From a virus, in the IMG/VR virus record IMGVR_UViG_3300008114_000116, positions 1 to 31,693 of that record: a stretch of 31,693 nucleotides of DNA; one strand, written 5' to 3'. Position 1 is the stretch's first letter; each line of letters starts with the position of its first letter. The notes beneath the pieces were generated by a model. The model saw only the letters and a list, made by a program, of their open reading frames with translations, was not told the DNA's origin and ran no database searches. This document shows, piece by piece, positions 115 through 16,138 of the stretch. Made by a program: the position numbers and the translations under genes.

Positions 115-339
115 GTTCACCGTCTTCTCGTTAACGTGATAAAAATCTCCATATTGTCCACGCATTCCAGCCTGTAAAATGTAATCAACTCTTTGCTCAG
201 TCATCCAACCAAACTTTTTAAATAAGTCGTGTAGACAATTAATTAGCTCAGTTGCCTCCTCTTTTTTATACTCTTTAAATTGCTTTAAACCGCAAACAAA
301 TTCCATTTTTTTCAAATGCTTAATTATCGTTTCCTTCAT
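1..339 (-). CDS. Replication-module protein of unknown function (5' part; continues across the contig join)
   Basis: This is the N-terminal part of a gene whose remainder is at the right end. Reading leftwards from the ATG at 339, the frame is open to base 1 (113 codons) and continues in the identical repeat at the other end to the stop at 31289. The whole protein is 209 residues from this ATG, or 198 from the second in-frame ATG at 306. The first ATG overlaps the end of the DUF6291 gene by 20 bases, similar to overlaps elsewhere in this genome. The visible part is largely helical, with a GQYGDFYHVNEKTVNGW segment near residues 65-81 that looks like a DNA-binding or protein-contact helix pair. 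I do not recognise a named family. Its place between DUF6291 and RusA-side genes suggests a replication accessory role. This is inference only. Confidence 0.8.
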   Translation of the reverse strand, partial: MKETIIKHLKKMEFVCGLKQFKEYKKEEATELINCLHDLFKKFGWMTEQRVDYILQAGMRGQYGDFYHVNEKTVNGWITQYYQHHQSQIVMEIQNQNNKGKEPSAEEIAYWIE

Positions 340-1048
340 TGTTTTGATTTTTTAGTTGCTCTTTTTCTCTTTGTAAGTCTTGCCAAATTTCCTCGAATAC
401 GTTGTAATTTTCTTTTTTATCTGGAGTTTTAGAATTGCCTTTTAAATAATTTGACAAATAAAGGTTAAATGAGTTTTCAGCTTTTGAAATTGTCATTGGC
501 TCGCCTTCTTTTATTATGACCCATTTTTTAAAGTAACTTTTAATTGTTTCGGTATCCGTTGAATGTACTACGCTCATTCGCTCAAAGTAAGGACGTTTTA
601 AAGGCTTTTCTTTATTAAAATCAATATAGACATCGTCCAAAGAAAAAAGTGCGCCAGCGCTTTCTTTATTTGTTACATTACCATTTACATTAACATTATC
701 ATTTACATTAACATTACCATTTACATTAACAGCTAAGTTTGCTAGGTTTTGCTTGGCTTTGCTAGAATCATTTGTAGCAAATGTAGCATTGCTAGCTTTT
801 GCTAGACCTCCCTTGCGTCCAGCCTCGGCGCGTTGTTGTTTCTTTTCGTCCCAAACTACCAAATCTCTTTTTAGCTGAGTCTTAATTGGTAAAAATGCAA
901 CCTTTAAAAGACGGTCGTTTACCTCTGGGTTTTCGTCATTAACGTAGGCAAAAATAATTTTAATAAGCTTGCCAGCGTCTTCGTCTGTAAGTTCGTCAAA
1001 TACCTCTCTTTGGTCGGTATATAGCACAAATGATTTTTTGCCTTGCAT
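320..1048 (-). CDS. DUF6291-type phage replication protein
   Basis: The 242-residue product starts MQGKKSFVLYTDQREVFDEL, followed by a helical segment with AGKLIKIIFAYVNDENPEV and then RDLVVWDEKKQQRAEAGRKGG (about residues 61-81). This is the usual layout of DUF6291 proteins in Bacteroidota phages, which lie in replication modules and resemble replisome-organiser or initiator N-domains. Residues 107-127 are a low-complexity N/V/G/D linker encoded by an 18-bp tandem repeat. After it comes a second helical domain (about 130-220) of the kind that could contact a helicase loader. It is the first gene of its operon and begins 11 bases after the U-tract side of an intrinsic terminator, so its expression may depend on read-through or attenuation. 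The exact function is inferred from family context. Confidence 0.8.
   Translation of the reverse strand: MQGKKSFVLYTDQREVFDELTDEDAGKLIKIIFAYVNDENPEVNDRLLKVAFLPIKTQLKRDLVVWDEKKQQRAEAGRKGGLAKASNATFATNDSSKAKQNLANLAVNVNGNVNVNDNVNVNGNVTNKESAGALFSLDDVYIDFNKEKPLKRPYFERMSVVHSTDTETIKSYFKKWVIIKEGEPMTISKAENSFNLYLSNYLKGNSKTPDKKENYNVFEEIWQDLQREKEQLKNQNNEGNDN
681..730. repeat. 18-bp tandem repeat, 2.8 copies, within DUF6291 gene
   Basis: The unit ccatttacattaacatta occurs at 681-698, with one mismatch at 699-716, and partially at 717-730. It encodes the N/V/G/D-rich linker of the DUF6291 protein. A period of six codons keeps frame, so copy-number change would alter linker length without breaking the protein. 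Confidence 0.85.
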
Positions 1049-1085
1049 AAAATAAAAAAGCCCAACTGGTGGTAGTCAGTCGGGC
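1049..1085 (-). terminator. Intrinsic terminator just upstream of the DUF6291 gene
   Basis: On the minus strand GCCCGACTG (1085-1077) pairs with CAGTTGGGC (1068-1060) over 9 bp with one G-U pair and an 8-base loop. TTTTTTATTTT follows (1059-1049), right before the ATG at 1048. It would end transcripts of the early operon (5164 to 1163) and those starting at the promoter near 1143. Its position directly in front of a start codon also fits an attenuator. Confidence 0.8.
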
Positions 1086-1138
1086 GGTTAGGTATCAACC
1101 TATGGAATTATTCTCGCTACCACACAGGAATAATTCGA
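1049..1138 (-). ncRNA. Candidate structured leader or small RNA with complementary hairpin loops
   Basis: Directly downstream of a good promoter the minus strand has three hairpins. H1 pairs GAATTATTC (1136-1128) with GAATAATTC (1113-1105), a perfect 9-bp stem with a 14-base loop. H2 pairs TAGGT (1102-1098) with ACCTA (1093-1089) around a 4-base loop. H3 is the terminator stem 1085-1077 with 1068-1060. The H1 loop contains GTGGTAG (1123-1117) and the H3 loop contains its exact complement CTACCAC (1075-1069), so a 7-bp loop-loop contact is possible. The contact could compete with or stabilise the terminator. It may be an attenuating leader of the DUF6291 operon or a free RNA of about 90 nt. 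I cannot match it to a known RNA family. Confidence 0.55.
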
Positions 1139-1142
1139 TACA

Positions 1143-1175
1143 CAAATATAACTCTTTTTTAGTTATCCAATCAAA
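1143..1175 (-). promoter_or_regulatory. Bacteroidota-type promoter for the leader/replication operon
   Basis: On the minus strand TTTG (1175-1172) is followed after 21 bases by TATATTTG (1150-1143), matching the Bacteroidota housekeeping promoter consensus TTTG...TAnnTTTG. Transcription would begin near 1137-1140, right at the first hairpin of the leader. The -33 box lies inside the end of the 47-residue HTH gene. Confidence 0.7.
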
Positions 1176-1306
1176 CCACGCTTCTTTAGTTGAATTAAAA
1201 TGCAATTATAAGAGCGCTTCATTTCGTAAGCTATTGCCTTTACTGGCAATCGGTCACGCCAGAGGTTTAGCATTACCTCCGCCTCCGTTTCCGTAAATTT
1301 CCGCAT
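1163..1306 (-). CDS. 47-residue helix-turn-helix protein
   Basis: This short frame starts at an ATG at 1306, 53 bases inside the end of the 131-residue gene, and ends at TAA 1163-1165. A later in-frame ATG at 1273 would give 36 residues. The product has FTETEAEVMLNLWRDRLPVK, then IAYEMKRS and ending LKKRGLIG. That is a sigma-region-4-like or GcrA-like helix-turn-helix: acidic first helix, LW, an I-A-xx-M-xR-S recognition region and a closing LKKxGLIG. The codons read as a clean protein with no internal stop, while the neighbouring frame is the end of another gene. It is the last gene of the early operon, just before a promoter and terminator, so a regulatory role is plausible. Function is inferred from fold only. 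Confidence 0.6.
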   Translation of the reverse strand: MRKFTETEAEVMLNLWRDRLPVKAIAYEMKRSYNCILIQLKKRGLIG

Positions 1307-1649
1307 CTTTATCCAATATTTTTTCAACTGCATTTAGGCATTCATTATATACCCCACCCCCCCGGTCTATTCCTTCGTGGATGAGTTCAAATAATTTAAC
1401 GAAGTCGTGAAACTGCTTAATCGTTGCCTCGCCTTCGTCATATCCCTCAAGAAATCGAAACGCTTTAGTCGCATTGCGTTTTAAAGAGTTGATAATATTC
1501 TTATGCTTAACGGTAAGGTCGTGGTCGTAATCCTTTAAAAACGTGCAGTCTTCGTAATTGTCTAGCATAATTTCTTGGAGCGCCAAGTAAATTAAATATT
1601 TCTGGGTTGCCCTAAATTGCAACTCCTTTACAATTTCCTCTTTTGTCAT
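1254..1649 (-). CDS. Hypothetical early protein, 131 residues
   Basis: Mostly alpha-helical and acidic, beginning MTKEEIVKELQFRATQKYLI and ending in a glycine-rich tail (NGGGGNAKPLA). I recognise no domain. It starts one base after the stop of the nuclease-like gene and its last 53 bases overlap the 47-residue HTH gene in another frame. A run of seven C on the plus strand (1357-1363) lies inside it and could be a sequencing-error point, but the frame is open on both sides. It belongs to the early operon. Confidence 0.7.
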   Translation of the reverse strand: MTKEEIVKELQFRATQKYLIYLALQEIMLDNYEDCTFLKDYDHDLTVKHKNIINSLKRNATKAFRFLEGYDEGEATIKQFHDFVKLFELIHEGIDRGGGVYNECLNAVEKILDKDAEIYGNGGGGNAKPLA

Positions 1650-5306: not shown

Positions 5307-5555
5307 ATGGACGAAACCCAAGTTTTAAATCCGTTTGGCTACGGAAATGCCAGCCGGGTAATTGACGAAAACAGAAAGCCAGCGGAATGGTATTGGGACT
5401 ATTTAGAGTTTAACGAGGTATTTGCCGAAAACGAGTTTTACGTTTTATTCTCGGACGGCTTATTGGTTAAAAAAGGTCGGTCTAAGTTTCGAACTTCCCA
5501 GTATTTGAAAGGCGAACGCTTCACCTCATTTAAAAAGGTTTATGAAAGGCTTTAA
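5307..5555 (+). CDS. Hypothetical protein, first gene of the plus-strand operon
   Basis: 82 residues, beginning MDETQVLNPFGYGNASRVID, then an aromatic and acidic middle (AEWYWDYLEFNEVFAENEF) and a basic C-terminus with KGRSKFRTSQYLKGERF. No domain recognised. Its last 14 bases overlap the 26-residue membrane gene, and the operon continues into the DUF1599-like gene. An A10 stretch precedes the start. Confidence 0.65.
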   Translation: MDETQVLNPFGYGNASRVIDENRKPAEWYWDYLEFNEVFAENEFYVLFSDGLLVKKGRSKFRTSQYLKGERFTSFKKVYERL

Positions 5556-5622
5556 AGAGTTTTTATTTGTTGTACTTGGCGCGGTTGCCTTTGCCGTGTT
5601 CGTAATCTGGCTTTACTCATAA
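5542..5622 (+). CDS. 26-residue membrane microprotein
   Basis: An ATG at 5542 opens a frame starting MKGFKEFLFVVLGAVAF and ending VFVIWLYS. It has a basic, amphipathic start followed by a single hydrophobic segment. Its stop TAA (5620-5622) shares a base with the next ATG at 5622, and its start overlaps the upstream gene, so the three plus-strand genes are linked end to end. This packing is the main evidence that it is translated. Confidence 0.55.
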   Translation: MKGFKEFLFVVLGAVAFAVFVIWLYS

Positions 5623-5936
5623 TGGAATTTAGCACCCAAGTATCTGAGGTCTTAATTGAGATTAAAGACCTATTAATAAGCAAAAATCAAAAGTACGGCA
5701 ACTCAGCGCTTGAGCCGCTTGGTGTATTTAGCAAGCTAACGCCAAAACAAGCTTTATTTGTAAGGATTGACGATAAGCTAAAACGAATTAAAAACGGCTC
5801 TTTAGAAAAGGACGACGAAGACGTTGTTAATGATTTAATCGGATACCTTGTTTTGTTAAAAGTAATTGAAAATTCAAAACGTAATTACGACGAACTAGAC
5901 GGGTCCCATAAATGGAAAAGCGTTAAAAATTTGTAA
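5622..5936 (+). CDS. Nucleotide-modification-associated (DUF1599/Nmad1-like) protein
   Basis: The 104-residue product is all-helical with NQKYGNSALEPLGVFSKL (about 22-39), VRIDDKLKRIKNG (about 47-59) and EDVVNDLIGYLVLL (about 66-79). The KYGNSAL, RIDDKLxRI and DLIGYLVLL blocks match the nucleotide-modification-associated family related to MazG-like all-alpha NTP pyrophosphatases, where acidic residues of the last helices bind metal. In phages this family accompanies nucleotide metabolism or DNA base modification. No other base-modification enzyme is evident here, so it may hydrolyse a nucleotide on its own. It is the last gene of the only plus-strand operon. Confidence 0.7.
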   Translation: MEFSTQVSEVLIEIKDLLISKNQKYGNSALEPLGVFSKLTPKQALFVRIDDKLKRIKNGSLEKDDEDVVNDLIGYLVLLKVIENSKRNYDELDGSHKWKSVKNL

Positions 5937-9475: not shown

Positions 9476-12400
9476 TTATACATATCTCGCGTCCAAATCT
9501 ACTAAAACGCCGGCAATTTCTACGCGTACTATTGCGTTAGGTGTTATCGTTCCACCTCTAGCCGTTCCAAGTTTCCAGTTTACGGCGCTGCCACCGCTAG
9601 GCGCCGCTGTTCTAATATCACCGTTAACGTGTAATCTAGCACCTACATCCGTTGTCGTTCCAATCAAGACGTTGCCGCTGGAGTAATTAATTACTAAAGG
9701 AAATCCATTAGTCCCAACAGAGTAAAACCCAAAGTTATCTGAGTTTTCATAAATGCCAGTAAACCATCTTTGAGAGCCAACACTAAAATAACCCATTCCA
9801 GCCGATGCGCTAGTTGCCCCTCTATTTGCGCCATAGGTTCCGTATGTTGTGCCAGATAAATAAACACCGCTAGAGGTTCCATAAGCACCGCTAACCGTAG
9901 CCGTCCCACTAACCTGAAGCCTCGCTCCGTTGTCTGTGGTTGTGCCGACTAACAGGTTGCCGCCTGAGGTTATTCTAGCGCGTTCGGTTCCTAAATTTCC
10001 TGGATAAGTTCCTGACCAAAAAGCAAAAGCATTAGTTCCTGCGGGTTGACCTATTCCCCAATCAGCAACAGACTCTTGGGTAAATTTCATTATCGCACCT
10101 GTTTGAGAGGAAGTTGCGTTGTTAAAAATTTCAAATATAATACCTGTTGTTGGATTATTGGCATATACAGAAAGTTTTGTACCTGGACTAGCCGTCCCAA
10201 TCCCAACGTTGCCGCCTGAGGTTATTGTTACTCTAGCCTCTGCACCTGATGTACCATTATAAAAAACAAACTTTCCATCAGTTTCAATTAATTGTTGAGC
10301 AATTGCAACAGAATCGCTACTTGTATTGTAAAATCTTAATCCTCCTACATTTCCAGATGTTCTCGCTGATTTAAAATCAAGTCCTACAAAGGCAACACCT
10401 TCTCTTAATGTTAGGTCAGCGTCAGTATTTATCCCTTGTGTACCCGCACCAATAGCAGCCGTCCCACTAACTTGCAATCTTGCTCCGTTGTCTGAGGTTG
10501 TGCCGACAAGGAGGTTGCCTCCGCTGGTTAATGTCATCGCTTGGGTGAAGCTTATAGCATTGCCAGCCGTTCCTGATGGGGCGGTTTGCCAAATATGTGT
10601 GCCTTCTTTTTGGTAGTAGTTTGTAGCAAAACTTGATGCTATATATGTTAATGAAGCACCACCTGTATAAGTCCAATTCAGTCCAAAGTTAATTTCGTTT
10701 ACACCATCTGTTCTTCCCATTAACCCACCTACTGCTATTCCTGTACCTAATTGGAATGCTCTATATACCGACCACGCACTCGGTGTAACTCCTAAGCCAA
10801 GGTTACCTGATGAAGTAATAGTTACTAAATCAGTAGAGGCAGTTGTATTTCTTATTTGAAAAGTATTAGAAATATTACCTCTAACAATTATCTCGTATCC
10901 TTGAGTGGTATTACTAAGGTTAAATCCTGGGAATCCTGTTGATGTATTTCCTTCCACAGAAACTCTTGGAGAAGCTGCATTTTGTAAAGAAACATTCCCA
11001 CTAAACCGCCCTGTTCCGTTGACATCTAGTCGGAAACCGTTATCAGCAGTTGCACCAAGTAATAAGTTCCCAGTATCTTGGTTAATAAAGAAAGGTGTAG
11101 TTCCTGCCGTTACATTGTTTATTGAAAAACCTGTTATTGTACCGACATTGTTGTTGTTCTGAATTTGCCAAGTGTTAACTCCACTTCTTTCAATTCTAAT
11201 AAATGGAGTAAGTCCTAGCAATGTTAGCATAGCACTAGGTCCATTCGTACCAATCCCAACATTCCCATCTAAAAAAGTATATCTAAAATTACTAGATACT
11301 CTTTGGACAGTAAATCCATTACTTATCCCTGACATTCCTGCTCTGAATATATTAGAATCAGTAGCAGATGGAGCAATTACATCAAGACTGTAACCTGGAT
11401 TAGCATTACCAATCCCAAGCCTATCATTAGTAGCATCCCAAAATAAATTAGACTCTCCTGTTATTGCAGAAGATGATGACCAATAAGCAACTTGTCCTGC
11501 CGTTCCTGTCCCTGTCACAGGGTTAGTTAAAGCGTTTTGCTTGTTGTTAAACGTTGTCCAATCGGTACTTGATAACAAGCCGTTTTGAGAGCCGCTAGCC
11601 GTTGCAATTGCTAGCGTAATTGTTCCGCTACCAGTTACTGGAGTAGAGCCAATAGTTACGCCGCTAGTTGCTGAGGATAAGCCGACAGAGGTAACCGTTC
11701 CCACGTTAAACGTGCGGTTTGCGCTCAGGTCTTGAGTCGTTCCGTTAATAGTTATCGTTCTACTTGTTGGAACGTAGCCGCTTAAATCTGGCGAGTAAAT
11801 TGGAATATTTAAGGTACTACCTACCAAAGTAGCCGCGCCACTTGAGCCAGTAGTTGTAAGCGTTAAAGCGTTCTGTTTGCCGTTAAATGTAGACCAATCC
11901 GCCGAACTTAATGCACCTCTATTCGATGCACTTGCAGTAGGTACGTTTAGCGTTATTACTGGCGTTGTCGTGCCATTTGCAACCGTACTAGATAAATCCG
12001 TACCGCTTGTCCCTAAAGTCAAAGCCGCCACGCTTGTAACCGTGCCAACGTTGTAAGTCCTATTAGCGCTTAAATCCTGAGTAGTTCCATTAATGGTAAT
12101 TGTACGAGTTTCTGGAACTGGCGTAAATCCTAGCGCATTCTGCTTATTGTTAAATGTCGTCCAATCGCCAGAACTCAAAGCGCCTCGATTTGTAGCGCTT
12201 GCAGTAGGCAAGTTAAACGTATGCGTAGCCGTTGCGCTCGCAATGTTAAAGTCCGTTCCTGTAGTTCCAACCGCAAAGTTTTGCACTTGAGCGGTCAACC
12301 CATTCAAAGCCGTTAAACCAGTCGTAAACGTGGTAATTATTTGGCATAAGGTATTATTTTCCGTATGCATCGTAATTGTACGACCAGAATGGTTAACGTA

Positions 12401-13075
12401 ATATCTAACGGCCAATCTATCAGTTAAAGCAAGAGTTGTTGTAGGTACTGCTAAACTAGAAAAGTAAGGCGTTAAAGTTGTGCCAAATGCAATTAACTCA
12501 GGCGCCGAACTGCTAGACGCTATTAAAGTAAATGTTGTGCCATCGTACTTATAAAGCTCAACGTAAAAGTTTGGAGTACCTCCACTACTTGACGCGCTAA
12601 AATAGGTTTCAAAGTTCCAGTTACCTCCGGGAATTTCTAGCAAATTTGGGTCGCCAGCATCGGTTAAAAAAGAAGCAATATAGCCATCCGCGGAAATAGT
12701 AAACTGCGTTCCAGCTCCCAAAATGGGAACCTTGTTTAATTCCTTATAAGCAACGCCGCCAATTGTTCCTTGGTTTACTGAGCCATTCAAATAGTAACTA
12801 ACTGACGAACCGCCACCGCTAGACTCTGGGAAATCAGCCAAAGAGCCGTCGCCTCGAATGTATTGCGCAACCGTTCCAGCGCCTCCTAAAACTTGATTTT
12901 CAGTAATTGATAAACCAGTAGCTTCCGGAGTAATTGTTACTGGTAAATGATTCTGGCCGCTGCCAGCCGGGTCGGTTGGACTTTGTCCCTCAGAAACTAC
13001 AAAGCCGGGGGAAGCTGGTTTGCTTCCTTCCCTTACAACGCTCGCTCTGTATTTGCTAATATTTACGTCTTCCAT
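9476..13075 (-). CDS. Tail fibre / receptor-binding protein with GNLLVGTT repeats
   Basis: The 1,199-residue product begins a few bases after the baseplate-like gene. Residues about 300-560 hold three copies of a repeat with RTITINGTTQDLSANRT and GALSSADWSTFNGKQNAL. From about 600 to the end come at least seven copies of short beta repeats such as GNVGIGTASPGTKLSV and LLVGTTTDNGARLQVSGT (near residues 605, 673, 762, 858, 958, 1042, 1138), separated by variable beta-rich segments. This is the layout of trimeric fibre shafts. No S74 intramolecular chaperone is seen; the chain ends VEIAGVLVDLDARYV. The repeat copies have diverged at DNA level, so they are old. It probably contacts host surface glycans or proteins. 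Confidence 0.85.
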   Translation of the reverse strand: MEDVNISKYRASVVREGSKPASPGFVVSEGQSPTDPAGSGQNHLPVTITPEATGLSITENQVLGGAGTVAQYIRGDGSLADFPESSGGGSSVSYYLNGSVNQGTIGGVAYKELNKVPILGAGTQFTISADGYIASFLTDAGDPNLLEIPGGNWNFETYFSASSSGGTPNFYVELYKYDGTTFTLIASSSSAPELIAFGTTLTPYFSSLAVPTTTLALTDRLAVRYYVNHSGRTITMHTENNTLCQIITTFTTGLTALNGLTAQVQNFAVGTTGTDFNIASATATHTFNLPTASATNRGALSSGDWTTFNNKQNALGFTPVPETRTITINGTTQDLSANRTYNVGTVTSVAALTLGTSGTDLSSTVANGTTTPVITLNVPTASASNRGALSSADWSTFNGKQNALTLTTTGSSGAATLVGSTLNIPIYSPDLSGYVPTSRTITINGTTQDLSANRTFNVGTVTSVGLSSATSGVTIGSTPVTGSGTITLAIATASGSQNGLLSSTDWTTFNNKQNALTNPVTGTGTAGQVAYWSSSSAITGESNLFWDATNDRLGIGNANPGYSLDVIAPSATDSNIFRAGMSGISNGFTVQRVSSNFRYTFLDGNVGIGTNGPSAMLTLLGLTPFIRIERSGVNTWQIQNNNNVGTITGFSINNVTAGTTPFFINQDTGNLLLGATADNGFRLDVNGTGRFSGNVSLQNAASPRVSVEGNTSTGFPGFNLSNTTQGYEIIVRGNISNTFQIRNTTASTDLVTITSSGNLGLGVTPSAWSVYRAFQLGTGIAVGGLMGRTDGVNEINFGLNWTYTGGASLTYIASSFATNYYQKEGTHIWQTAPSGTAGNAISFTQAMTLTSGGNLLVGTTSDNGARLQVSGTAAIGAGTQGINTDADLTLREGVAFVGLDFKSARTSGNVGGLRFYNTSSDSVAIAQQLIETDGKFVFYNGTSGAEARVTITSGGNVGIGTASPGTKLSVYANNPTTGIIFEIFNNATSSQTGAIMKFTQESVADWGIGQPAGTNAFAFWSGTYPGNLGTERARITSGGNLLVGTTTDNGARLQVSGTATVSGAYGTSSGVYLSGTTYGTYGANRGATSASAGMGYFSVGSQRWFTGIYENSDNFGFYSVGTNGFPLVINYSSGNVLIGTTTDVGARLHVNGDIRTAAPSGGSAVNWKLGTARGGTITPNAIVRVEIAGVLVDLDARYV

Positions 13076-16000
13076 TTATGTCGTTGGTTCAATTCCTAAA
13101 TCGTAAAGTTCAATTTGCGCCGTTCCTGTTCTGCAATTTAGTTGGTAGCTAACTAGCGCCCAATAACGTCCGTTGAATAAAAAGGAGCGCCAAGGTTCGA
13201 TTGGTCTACGTTCCAAAGTTGCCATAATTCTGTAATTGGTTCGCCCTTTCAAGTTAGCCAATTCTTGCACGATAATATCTAACAAAGGTAAGGTTTCTAC
13301 TCCATCTCGGCTCCATAACTCCGAAACAGGATTGCCAGCCGTAAGCAACTGAATTGCCGAAGCTGAGTTGCTAGTTATTGCGTCGCCAATGTATGTATTG
13401 TAATCTGGGTGAACGTTTGCGTAAGGAGAACCGGTAACCGCTTTTACTCCCAATTTAGAAAGCGAAAGGCCGTCCGTTTTTTCAATCTTTAAAGAAATGT
13501 TATCGTAACGTATAACGTATCTGTTCGCCGTGCCTCCATTACAAATCAATTGATAAAGCCTAATTTCAACTTCGCCGTCTACTGGAACTAAAACGTTATT
13601 AATTGCAATGCTATTCCAAACGCTGCCAGCCGTAACCGCGAATTGCATTACAGTAGGCGTTGCCGTCCAATCAAAAGTCGTCGTTGTATCTCTGTATAAA
13701 TACTGATTACCAATTTTAACCATTAAGCCAACGGAATGCGTTCCACCGGCTGGAGTAATAGGGAAAGCTGAACCAACTCTTTCAACCATGTATTCAAAGG
13801 TCAAAGAAATTGTATTGGCCGTTTCTTGCGCTATTGTAATCGCTCCGCCAGTACTATTCGTATTCGCAGAAATCCAGCTAATATTTGGGTCGCTGGCGCC
13901 AGCCGTTGTGGTTGTTGTCCATATCTGGCAATATTCACCGCTAGAATCGGCAACGTATTGAACCAAAGCAGTAGCTCCACTTGGAACGCTAGACGGTTGC
14001 AAGCTAGGAATCGCGTTATGGTAATCCCAAAGCGTTAATTGGTATGTGTTTGGGTAAGGCGAAGCGGAGCTATTAAAATTCCATTCTGTCGATTCAAACT
14101 TGGCATCAAAAACACCGCCTTGCGAATCTTTGTCCAAAATACCAAGGTTTAGAAAAGCGTTAAACTCGGTAAATACTCTTCGCGCCGTTTCCTCTGGTCT
14201 ATTGATATCCGCGTTAATATCGTCGCCGTTTATAATCGTTTCACTAAGTAAAAGAGATTGGTTAGGGTCAAACGTAAAAGCCTTATAACTGATTTGGTTA
14301 TATTCATTTAGGCGGATAACATAAAACTTGTCCCTCCACAAAAATACGCGGCCTAAGAAAGGATTAACCATTCGCTCAATGGTATCTTTTAAATACAATT
14401 GCTCGTTTTCAATCCTTACGCCGTTGGAAAACTTAGCCGTTTCTCCATCGGTATAAATAGCATTTAAAGGGACGTTAAATTGTCTGAATGGCGAAATAGT
14501 ATCGTTCATTCTAGTTTCGTGAATATTCACGCCAACAAAAACGTCTCTTTTATCGACAAAGCTTTGGTTTAAACCTCCAACAACCGCGGAAAGCGCTTGA
14601 GTTCGTGGGTCTGGCCAGCTTGCAAAGTTTGACCTAATGGAATCCAAACCTTTTAATCCGTCAATGGCCGTAAATTGAAAGAGCTTGTTTCCGCTACTGT
14701 ATGGACTTGTTATAAAGTCAGGCGCAATAAAGCCGGTAAAGAAAGATTGGATTCCTTCAAATAAAAGGTAGTTTATTCGATTTGTAGGTCCTCCATCCGC
14801 AACCGCAACAAATGTATTTTCTCCAAATGCTATTCCAACAAAAGTTGCAACAGAAGCCGCTGGTATTGCAGTCCAAGTAATTGCATCCGTACTATATAAA
14901 ATTCTATTAGTTCCGCCATTTGTAACCGCAACAAAATAACCATTACCATAAGCAAGACCTTGACAAGTAGTGCCAAAAGAAACTACGTTCCAAGTTAATC
15001 CATCTACTGAATAAAAATTACCAGTAGTAAATAAACCATTAGCGTAAATTATAGATTTTTGACCAAATGCAGTTGCTTGTTCATCCCAAGTAAATCCGTC
15101 GTATGATGTAAATGTAGTACCGCCAGTTGAAGCGTCAGAAATTGCAACCCAAATTCCAGTACCATAAGCAACGCCAGTAAAATTTGGATTAATACCGCTA
15201 TTTCTTGCAGTCCAAGTTATTCCATCGGGCGAGGTCATAATTCTATTGCTTGCACCACTTGAAGCTACCGCAACGAATAAATCATTACCAAAAGAAACTG
15301 ATACCCAATTATTATTTGCCGCTGGAGTTCTACTTGTCCAGTTTATTCCGTCAGTTGACGAATAAGCAAAAGCAGTAGGCGTTCCACTAACAACCGCAAA
15401 ACCAACGGCCACAAATAAGCCATTTCCGTACGTTATGGCGTTCGCTTGCCATCCAACAGGTATTGTCTCAACCCAAGTAATTCCGTCCAATGAATAGGCT
15501 AAAAATGGCCCAAACGTGGCCACAAAAATCCCATTACCATAAACTATATCTTTATATCCATTTGTAACCGAAACTCCATTCCAATCTGTAATATCGTTAT
15601 TATCTCCAACTTGATTTAAAACAACTTTCCAAGTCCTATTTCCACCAACTAAAAACTCGTTGAAATCTCCAGTCTCTCCAGCGATTGTAAAGTCAATTGA
15701 GGAGCCTATAATTGTCTCTGTTGGGTCGTTTCCTGTGTTGCCCCAGTTGTAAGTAATGTCGTTGATTTCAAGCGGCGTAACGGCACCAGAATAGCCAAGT
15801 TTTTGTATTTGCAAATCCCAAACGTTACCGCCATAATTTGTCGCATAACCGCCTTGGTATTTTAATCCATAAGTGTTAATCGGTACGTTTTGCCCAGTTA
15901 AAACCGTGTAAACCTTGGTATCTTGGCTCGGCATCGTAAAGCTAAACGAAAGTTGAGGAGATAATAAAGTATTACCAGGCAAAGAATACCACTTTGCCGT

Positions 16001-16138
16001 GTGGAATCCAGAATCTGGAGCAACCGCAATCGTTAGAACGTCGCCCTCTGTGTAGAATTCAGCTGGCGCAACTCCATTAACTGTAATTGTGCCAAGTCCT
16101 TCGCGAACGGCTAGTAAAAGCCTATAATCGTTTGCCAT
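13076..16138 (-). CDS. Baseplate / tail-tip protein with an inserted beta-propeller
   Basis: The 1,020-residue product starts with a divergent InlB-like beta domain (about 15-81: GTITVNG...YTEGDVLTIAVAPDSGF...FTMPS). Residues about 183-456 hold six repeats of YGNGxFVAV followed by S-x-DGxxW (at 216-222, 260-267, 302-309, 344-351, 376-383, 415-422), a BNR/sialidase-type beta-propeller. The flanking sequence (GGNRTWKVVLNQ before, LLFEGIQSFFTGFIAPDFI after) then resumes a hub-like protein with REFVGVNIHET-type segments and a C-terminal carbohydrate-binding-like beta sandwich. It lies between tape measure and fibre and overlaps the tape measure stop by one base. The propeller may bind glycans; that is inference. 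Confidence 0.8.
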   Translation of the reverse strand: MANDYRLLLAVREGLGTITVNGVAPAEFYTEGDVLTIAVAPDSGFHTAKWYSLPGNTLLSPQLSFSFTMPSQDTKVYTVLTGQNVPINTYGLKYQGGYATNYGGNVWDLQIQKLGYSGAVTPLEINDITYNWGNTGNDPTETIIGSSIDFTIAGETGDFNEFLVGGNRTWKVVLNQVGDNNDITDWNGVSVTNGYKDIVYGNGIFVATFGPFLAYSLDGITWVETIPVGWQANAITYGNGLFVAVGFAVVSGTPTAFAYSSTDGINWTSRTPAANNNWVSVSFGNDLFVAVASSGASNRIMTSPDGITWTARNSGINPNFTGVAYGTGIWVAISDASTGGTTFTSYDGFTWDEQATAFGQKSIIYANGLFTTGNFYSVDGLTWNVVSFGTTCQGLAYGNGYFVAVTNGGTNRILYSTDAITWTAIPAASVATFVGIAFGENTFVAVADGGPTNRINYLLFEGIQSFFTGFIAPDFITSPYSSGNKLFQFTAIDGLKGLDSIRSNFASWPDPRTQALSAVVGGLNQSFVDKRDVFVGVNIHETRMNDTISPFRQFNVPLNAIYTDGETAKFSNGVRIENEQLYLKDTIERMVNPFLGRVFLWRDKFYVIRLNEYNQISYKAFTFDPNQSLLLSETIINGDDINADINRPEETARRVFTEFNAFLNLGILDKDSQGGVFDAKFESTEWNFNSSASPYPNTYQLTLWDYHNAIPSLQPSSVPSGATALVQYVADSSGEYCQIWTTTTTAGASDPNISWISANTNSTGGAITIAQETANTISLTFEYMVERVGSAFPITPAGGTHSVGLMVKIGNQYLYRDTTTTFDWTATPTVMQFAVTAGSVWNSIAINNVLVPVDGEVEIRLYQLICNGGTANRYVIRYDNISLKIEKTDGLSLSKLGVKAVTGSPYANVHPDYNTYIGDAITSNSASAIQLLTAGNPVSELWSRDGVETLPLLDIIVQELANLKGRTNYRIMATLERRPIEPWRSFLFNGRYWALVSYQLNCRTGTAQIELYDLGIEPTT

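Follow-up and report, generated by a model that had tools for sequence, protein, structure and literature searches.

Plasmids of the pT181 type reportedly limit their replication by a countertranscript-driven transcriptional attenuator, a scheme said to go back to Novick in 1989. Among bacteriophages, the CI RNA of P4 and the c4 RNA of P1 and P7 pair with their own leader transcript, cause its premature termination and set immunity specificity; these are processed RNAs of prophages or satellites, with separate target copies. In pT181 attenuation, pairing of the antisense RNA begins by a kissing-hairpin contact, as described in PMC4878617. PMC10724649 reports that loop nucleotides decide compatibility in plasmid RNAI incompatibility, and that in the RepZ/RepA systems of IncI-alpha, IncB and IncL/M plasmids, where a few loop changes define incompatibility groups, a loop-loop contact controls translation near the start codon, with RNAI being a separate transcript.

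We herein analyse a phage leader of approximately 88 nt within a viral sequence of 31,693 nt (IMG/VR record IMGVR_UViG_3300008114_000116; this whole stretch is referred to as the window). As in pT181, it precedes, at the sequence level, a replication initiator gene and ends in an intrinsic terminator directly ahead of that gene, an arrangement that recurs in 79 leaders found by a pattern scan, and its loops can be likened to the kissing hairpin loops that give pT181 its specificity and through which replication is limited by copy number. Unlike pT181, it belongs to a phage and not to a plasmid, carries both complementary loops in one RNA and is swapped as alleles; moreover, neither a separate antisense transcript nor an antiterminator stem was found. 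In the search for opposite-strand boxes of the type TAnnTTTG, only 11 of 132 leaders gave a match, and these were scattered, while none of eight folded leaders contained a conserved partner able to sequester the 5' arm of the terminator hairpin; only its loop has one. The leader also shares with the IncI-alpha, IncB and IncL/M systems a long-range loop-loop contact in a rep leader, and discrete loop alleles exist here. Its partner loop, however, lies in the terminator hairpin, which in the window places it approximately 20 nt ahead of the ATG and not at the start codon or the ribosome site, and no conserved antisense promoter is seen. In contrast to P4 CI and the c4 RNAs, both partners lie on a single leader here, and the window genes scanned include neither an integrase nor a repressor. 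By analogy, the locus may be a loop-loop-controlled replication leader with the antisense built into it, following the logic of pT181 and RNAI.

The original prediction had been unable to link this RNA to a known class, and this still holds: neither the window nor 12 loci of diverse leader types matched any Rfam 15 family at the gathering threshold. The best permissive score, for the trpB motif (RF04312), which has hairpins of similar length and a terminator, was rejected as chance level (26 bits against a gathering threshold of 59, E 0.054). A literature search, from which most subscription journals were excluded, returned no description of DUF6291 or of such a leader.

Anatomy of the leader in the window

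The promoter box, the hairpins of 9 and 5 bp, the terminator hairpin and the complementary loops that had been predicted originally are all present on the minus strand. The putative promoter comprises a Bacteroidota-type -7 element, TATATTTG (1143..1150, minus strand), and a -33-like TTTG/TTG element, TTTGATTGGATAA (1163..1175, minus strand), whose position fits the Bacteroidota promoter pattern; TTGGATAA recurs among homologues. A TAnnTTnG-like box was present in 105 of 126 distinct regions upstream of rep genes, a set that includes leaderless ones. Judged from the -7 box and the U tract, the RNA would span 85-90 nt (1049..1137, minus strand), and a covariance model matched the window at 1136-1049 with 92 bits.

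Hairpin 1 (1105..1136, minus strand) has a perfect 9-bp stem, with the arms GAATTATTC...GAATAATTC, and a loop of 14 nt; GTGGTAG, originally taken for the loop, is its 7-nt core (GUGGUAG, 1117..1123, minus strand). This core is indeed the perfect complement of CUACCAC (1069..1075, minus strand) in the 8-nt loop of hairpin 3, ACTACCAC, and the two covary in homologues. Hairpin 2 (5 bp, 1089..1102, minus strand) is confined to the main leader family, in which it is variable yet pairable. Hairpin 3, the predicted terminator hairpin (1060..1085, minus strand), is formed by GCCCGACTG...CAGTTGGGC with 9 bp including one G-U; TTTTTTATTTT and the start codon of the DUF6291 gene come next. The U tract, UUUUUUAUUUU (1049..1059, minus strand), adjoins this start codon: T6 at 1059-1054 is followed by ATTTT to 1049 and by the ATG at 1048-1046. 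It had been said to end one base before the ATG, but the strict U6 run stops 5 nt upstream. A U-rich tract is retained across all leader families.

The leader folds with -34.5 kcal/mol, compared to -21.0 (sd 3.0) for its shuffles (z = -4.5; 0 of 200 shuffles as good), and a 7-nt match between shuffled loops of the same composition has a P of approximately 0.005; the evolutionary evidence for loop pairing, drawn from sequence comparison, is far stronger than this value. Neither GTGGTAG nor CTACCAC has a further copy on either strand of the window, so that, within the phage, the leader is unlikely to have any partner but itself.

A 7-9 nt loop-loop contact in the leader of a replication initiator would also suit a translation-control pseudoknot as in IncI/IncB plasmids, in which access to the rep start codon depends on the contact, by the logic of the RepZ/RepA pseudoknots cited in PMC10724649. 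We regard this as quite improbable, given that the start codon lies outside the predicted leader hairpins, that the partner loop sits in the terminator and is followed by the U-rich tract in every family, and that both a leader peptide ORF and a conserved antisense promoter were sought and not found. An ATG inside hairpin 1, considered as the start of a leader peptide, occurs in one subfamily only and was discarded.

The gene that follows (320..1048, minus strand) is the first of the replication operon and encodes a DUF6291 protein of 242 aa (Pfam PF19808, E 2.8e-25), whose relatives are annotated as 'replication protein'. On the other side lies a 56-aa ORF (1163-1333, minus strand) that looks like a helix-turn-helix protein (...KAIAYEMKRSYNCILIQLKKRGLIG) and matches nothing in Pfam or PHROG; the -33 region of the leader promoter overlaps its stop codon, and the end of the ORF, GTTGGATAA, was found again in homologues. 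Elsewhere in the window, two small plus-strand genes (5307-5555 and 5622-5936), possibly early regulators, interrupt an otherwise minus-strand genome, and two very large genes (9476-16138, minus strand; 1199 and 1020 aa) may encode tail or adhesin proteins, since the second contains a divergent InlB B-repeat domain.

Loop pairing among related and unrelated leaders

Homologues were collected by a protein search with the DUF6291 product, which returned 80 IMG/VR loci. Close relatives retain the three hairpins and the U tract, and their two loops change in step: loop 1 reads GTGGTAG, GTGAGAG, GTCGGAG, GTCGCAG or GTAGGAG, and loop 3 is always its perfect complement. A later scan added GTAGCAG, GTGGAAG and GTAGAAG, again with perfectly complementary third loops, giving eight loop types with the pattern GU-NNN-AG/CU-NNN-AC. 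When 99 distinct homologous leaders were parsed without requiring complementarity, the loops paired perfectly in 98, and in all 99 once L175 was corrected, where the parser had taken the wrong hairpin and the true loops pair perfectly. Between loops of different types, complementarity was found in none of 8408 comparisons.

Because tool-made alignments misalign loop 1 where loop lengths differ, pairs were counted in gap-free concatenated helix elements, also chosen without requiring complementarity. All cells of this alignment pair, with two-sided changes in 11 of 15 pairs, and the covariation score of the whole structure reached 0.81, compared to 0.18 for shuffled and at most 0.11 for slid alignments. 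The seven positions of the kissing helix comprise three with two-sided changes, four that are invariant and none with a one-sided change. Both hairpin stems covary with compensatory changes, which concern five of the five tested pairs of hairpin 1, on both sides, and the three tested pairs of hairpin 3. Read on the minus-strand RNA, the stem wobbles are G-U in 24 cases versus A-C in 7, pointing to the minus strand as the source of the RNA. A loop-loop contact is strongly supported by these comparisons, and the leader displays the two hairpin loops with conserved, covarying Watson-Crick complementarity that characterise the kissing-loop structural class. The original expectation that homologues would keep the stems and the loop complementarity was borne out, both stems as well as both loops showing compensatory changes, and it extends to families of unrelated sequence. 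An ordinary promoter-plus-terminator boundary between operons, with loops that match by chance, would agree with the end of the same-strand upstream operon shortly before the leader promoter; it is refuted by the covariation, complementarity being found in 99 of 99 parsed leaders as well as in the unrelated families. One strand of every kissing helix contains GUNR (GUGG, GUGA, GUCG, GUAG, GUUG or GUCA; joint shuffled P approximately 1.5e-4), which resembles the U-turn (UNR) of antisense-RNA recognition loops.

In DUF6291 phages that are more remote, the leaders show no clear sequence resemblance but follow the same plan. Their loop pairs are GCTCTCAC/GTGAGAGC in L049, CGTCCTAC/GTAGGACG in L052, CTTCCTAC/GTAGGAAG in L060, GGCTTCAC/GTGAAGCC in L046, GTCGCTG/CAGCGAC in L051, CGTAGGA/TCCTACG in L065, CGCAACA/TGTTGCG in L073 and GTAGAAG/CTTCTAC in L057; among cultivated Cellulophaga phages, phi13:2, phi19:3 and phi46:3 carry CTCTCACAA/TTGTGAGAG, and phi18:3 carries CTTCTGAC/GTCAGAAG. 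Under loop shuffling, the P of such a match is approximately 0.0003-0.007 per leader family. In some unrelated leaders the polarity is reversed, with the purine-rich strand in the terminator loop and not in loop 1. As far as sequences tell, a short folded RNA with matching loops is present in many Flavobacteriia phages, before the first replication gene. It is absent from related rep genes of phages 11b, elemo, lillamy and Harreka, where an ORF runs up to the start codon; being missing from many related rep genes, the leader is not essential to this replication type. A direct nucleotide comparison of the window leader with named phages gave chance matches only, and a covariance-model search of 299 Flavobacteriaceae genomes, run without a positive control, gave no match, which only suggests that the main leader family is not common in prophages.

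Position before replication genes and exchange of alleles

An IMG/VR pattern scan based on RNA features alone, with no protein query, yielded 80 kissing leaders; its opposite-strand matches were the same element read backwards and were rejected. In 79 of the 80, the next gene begins 7-17 nt past the U run and encodes either a DUF6291, Lin1244_N or DUF7833-type protein or a PDDEXK-like protein with one of these rep genes behind it; the remaining leader (L095) lies upstream of a BT4734-like/PriCT primase. The PDDEXK-like nuclease gene (similar to YhcG_C/HSDR_N_2) was seen between leader and rep gene at approximately 5908 in L126 and, on the reverse strand, at approximately 12491 in L197; in phi46:3 (L338, 1651-2100), an HNH endonuclease gene lies there. 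The link to a DUF6291 operon claimed originally holds in the window, but other phages have the leader before unrelated rep genes, and it is not tied to DUF6291. Since it precedes the first replication gene whichever gene that is, the leader belongs to the start of the replication operon and not to one protein.

Such strict placement, even before unrelated first rep genes, favours a cis leader over a free-standing small RNA, i.e., the first of the two options in the original prediction; both may be true, because termination would release the leader as a free RNA of about 90 nt, and control of termination is our reading of the sequence. The alternative, a free small RNA of approximately 88 nt that is made from a strong promoter and acts in trans on host or phage targets, with the rep gene transcribed from further upstream and close by only incidentally, would explain the compact structure with its own promoter box and terminator. 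We consider it improbable: the RNA always adjoins the first replication gene, even where gene or allele has been exchanged, its loops are too variable for a fixed host target, and the window has no second complementary site.

Comparison of 91 close phage pairs revealed a bimodal distribution of leader identity, with means of 98.5% or 73.2%. In the 65 pairs that share a loop type, the leaders are 98.5% identical and the flanks 92.8 and 96.5%; in the 26 pairs with different loop types, the leaders are 73.2% identical and the flanks 91.7 and 93.8%. In L010/L014, the upstream gene (98.3%) and the rep gene (99.8%) are nearly identical, the leader is 73% identical, and the dip is limited to the stretch from the promoter to the first codons. 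Near-identical phages with swapped leaders also include L302/L306 and L242/L243; both loop halves change, and no wobble intermediate was seen. The cultivated phages phi13:2 and phi18:3 are 92-100% identical over approximately 750 bp upstream and diverge at the downstream edge of the promoter; here the replication module differs as well as the leader. When 132 leaders were clustered at 90%, 12 clusters resulted, of which only one mixes loop types; three kinds of rep gene are represented in each of the large allele clusters, and one leader allele occurs upstream of unrelated rep genes. Parsimony on three rep-gene trees required 18, 16 and 6 changes of loop type, which is independent of rep-gene kind, and contigs of metagenome 3300042691 together contain GTAGCAG, GTAGGAG, GTGGAAG, GTGGTAG and GTGAGAG.

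At the level of these alignments, the leader is a set of discrete, exchanged alleles, which the original prediction had not recognised; the pattern is compatible with exchange as cassettes or with template switching from one inverted loop copy to the other. To our knowledge, discrete exchange of RNA alleles between near-identical phages is undescribed for any phage leader RNA. Such exchange points to recognition between leader molecules; it could instead reflect evasion of a host factor or of a rival antisense.

Two other explanations bear on these data. A purely cis attenuator or RNA stabiliser, in which kissing lends stability to the terminator or the 5' leader and holds the replication protein at a fixed level, would account for the covariation, which needs cis contact alone, and for the fixed position before rep genes. 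It would treat the alleles as neutral drift spread by recombination, from which a continuum of divergence and wobble intermediates are expected, whereas close pairs fall at 98.5% or 73% and the kissing helix lacks one-sided changes; we consider it unlikely, though to be taken seriously. The two loops also form an inverted repeat in the DNA near a replication gene and could serve as paired sites for a regulator or replication initiator of variable specificity. This we hold to be highly improbable, in view of the location of both halves in loops of covarying hairpins, the excess of G-U wobbles on one strand, the independence of loop type from rep-gene kind and the finding that, over 550 bp upstream and 900 bp downstream, L302/L306 and L242/L243 show no regulator exchanged along with the leader.

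Possible attenuation of the replication operon

The terminator adjoins the start codon, no antiterminator, leader ORF or antisense promoter was found to be conserved, and the loop partner emerges ahead of the 3' arm of the terminator; together these suggest that loop pairing competes with the terminator. We therefore propose, as a reading with about as much for it as against it, that the leader attenuates transcription of the replication operon, with an allele-specific loop-loop contact that competes with the terminator and a terminated RNA that may act in trans as antisense. RNA polymerase would start approximately 6 nt past TATATTTG and hairpin 1 would be made first, its loop (L1) being preformed as the terminator region emerges. 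The terminator loop (L3) would exit the polymerase ahead of the 3' arm of the terminator, and L3:L1 pairing of 7-9 bp would compete with the terminator or slow it, allowing the polymerase to read into the replication gene. When L1 or L3 is occupied by the complementary loop of a terminated same-allele leader RNA from other genome copies, the terminator would form and the operon would remain off. In this way the leader would serve as its own antisense RNA, providing copy-number feedback and allele-specific exclusion of co-infecting relatives, and such exclusion would select for rare alleles.

Folding bears on the cis part of this scheme. With the 3' arm of the terminator omitted, the window, L052, L065 and phi19:3 all have L1:L3 as their minimum-energy pairing. 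Of five main-family alleles folded, four retain hairpin 1 in their pre-terminator minimum-energy fold, so that a true kissing complex would be needed there, and its effect on termination could go either way. The trans part, in which the terminated leader of one copy acts on nascent leaders of the same allele as a self-antisense replication-control RNA, we put forward tentatively, as possible rather than probable; L1-L3 kissing within the finished RNA would leave those loops not free for trans pairing, which argues against it.

The leader represents a widespread RNA class, absent from Rfam, at a control point of DNA replication in Flavobacteriia phages, and near-identical phages exchange discrete RNA alleles, which is the signature of a specificity system. 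The Cellulophaga baltica phages phi13:2, phi19:3 and phi46:3 on the one hand and phi18:3 on the other represent two alleles, which makes the idea testable in the laboratory. If the self-antisense reading is true, phages with this leader would combine RNA-based copy sensing with superinfection exclusion, with no separate antisense gene or repressor protein, and would maintain balanced, exchangeable specificity alleles across their populations. A trans-acting leader would provide a protein-free superinfection or copy-number system from approximately 90 nt.
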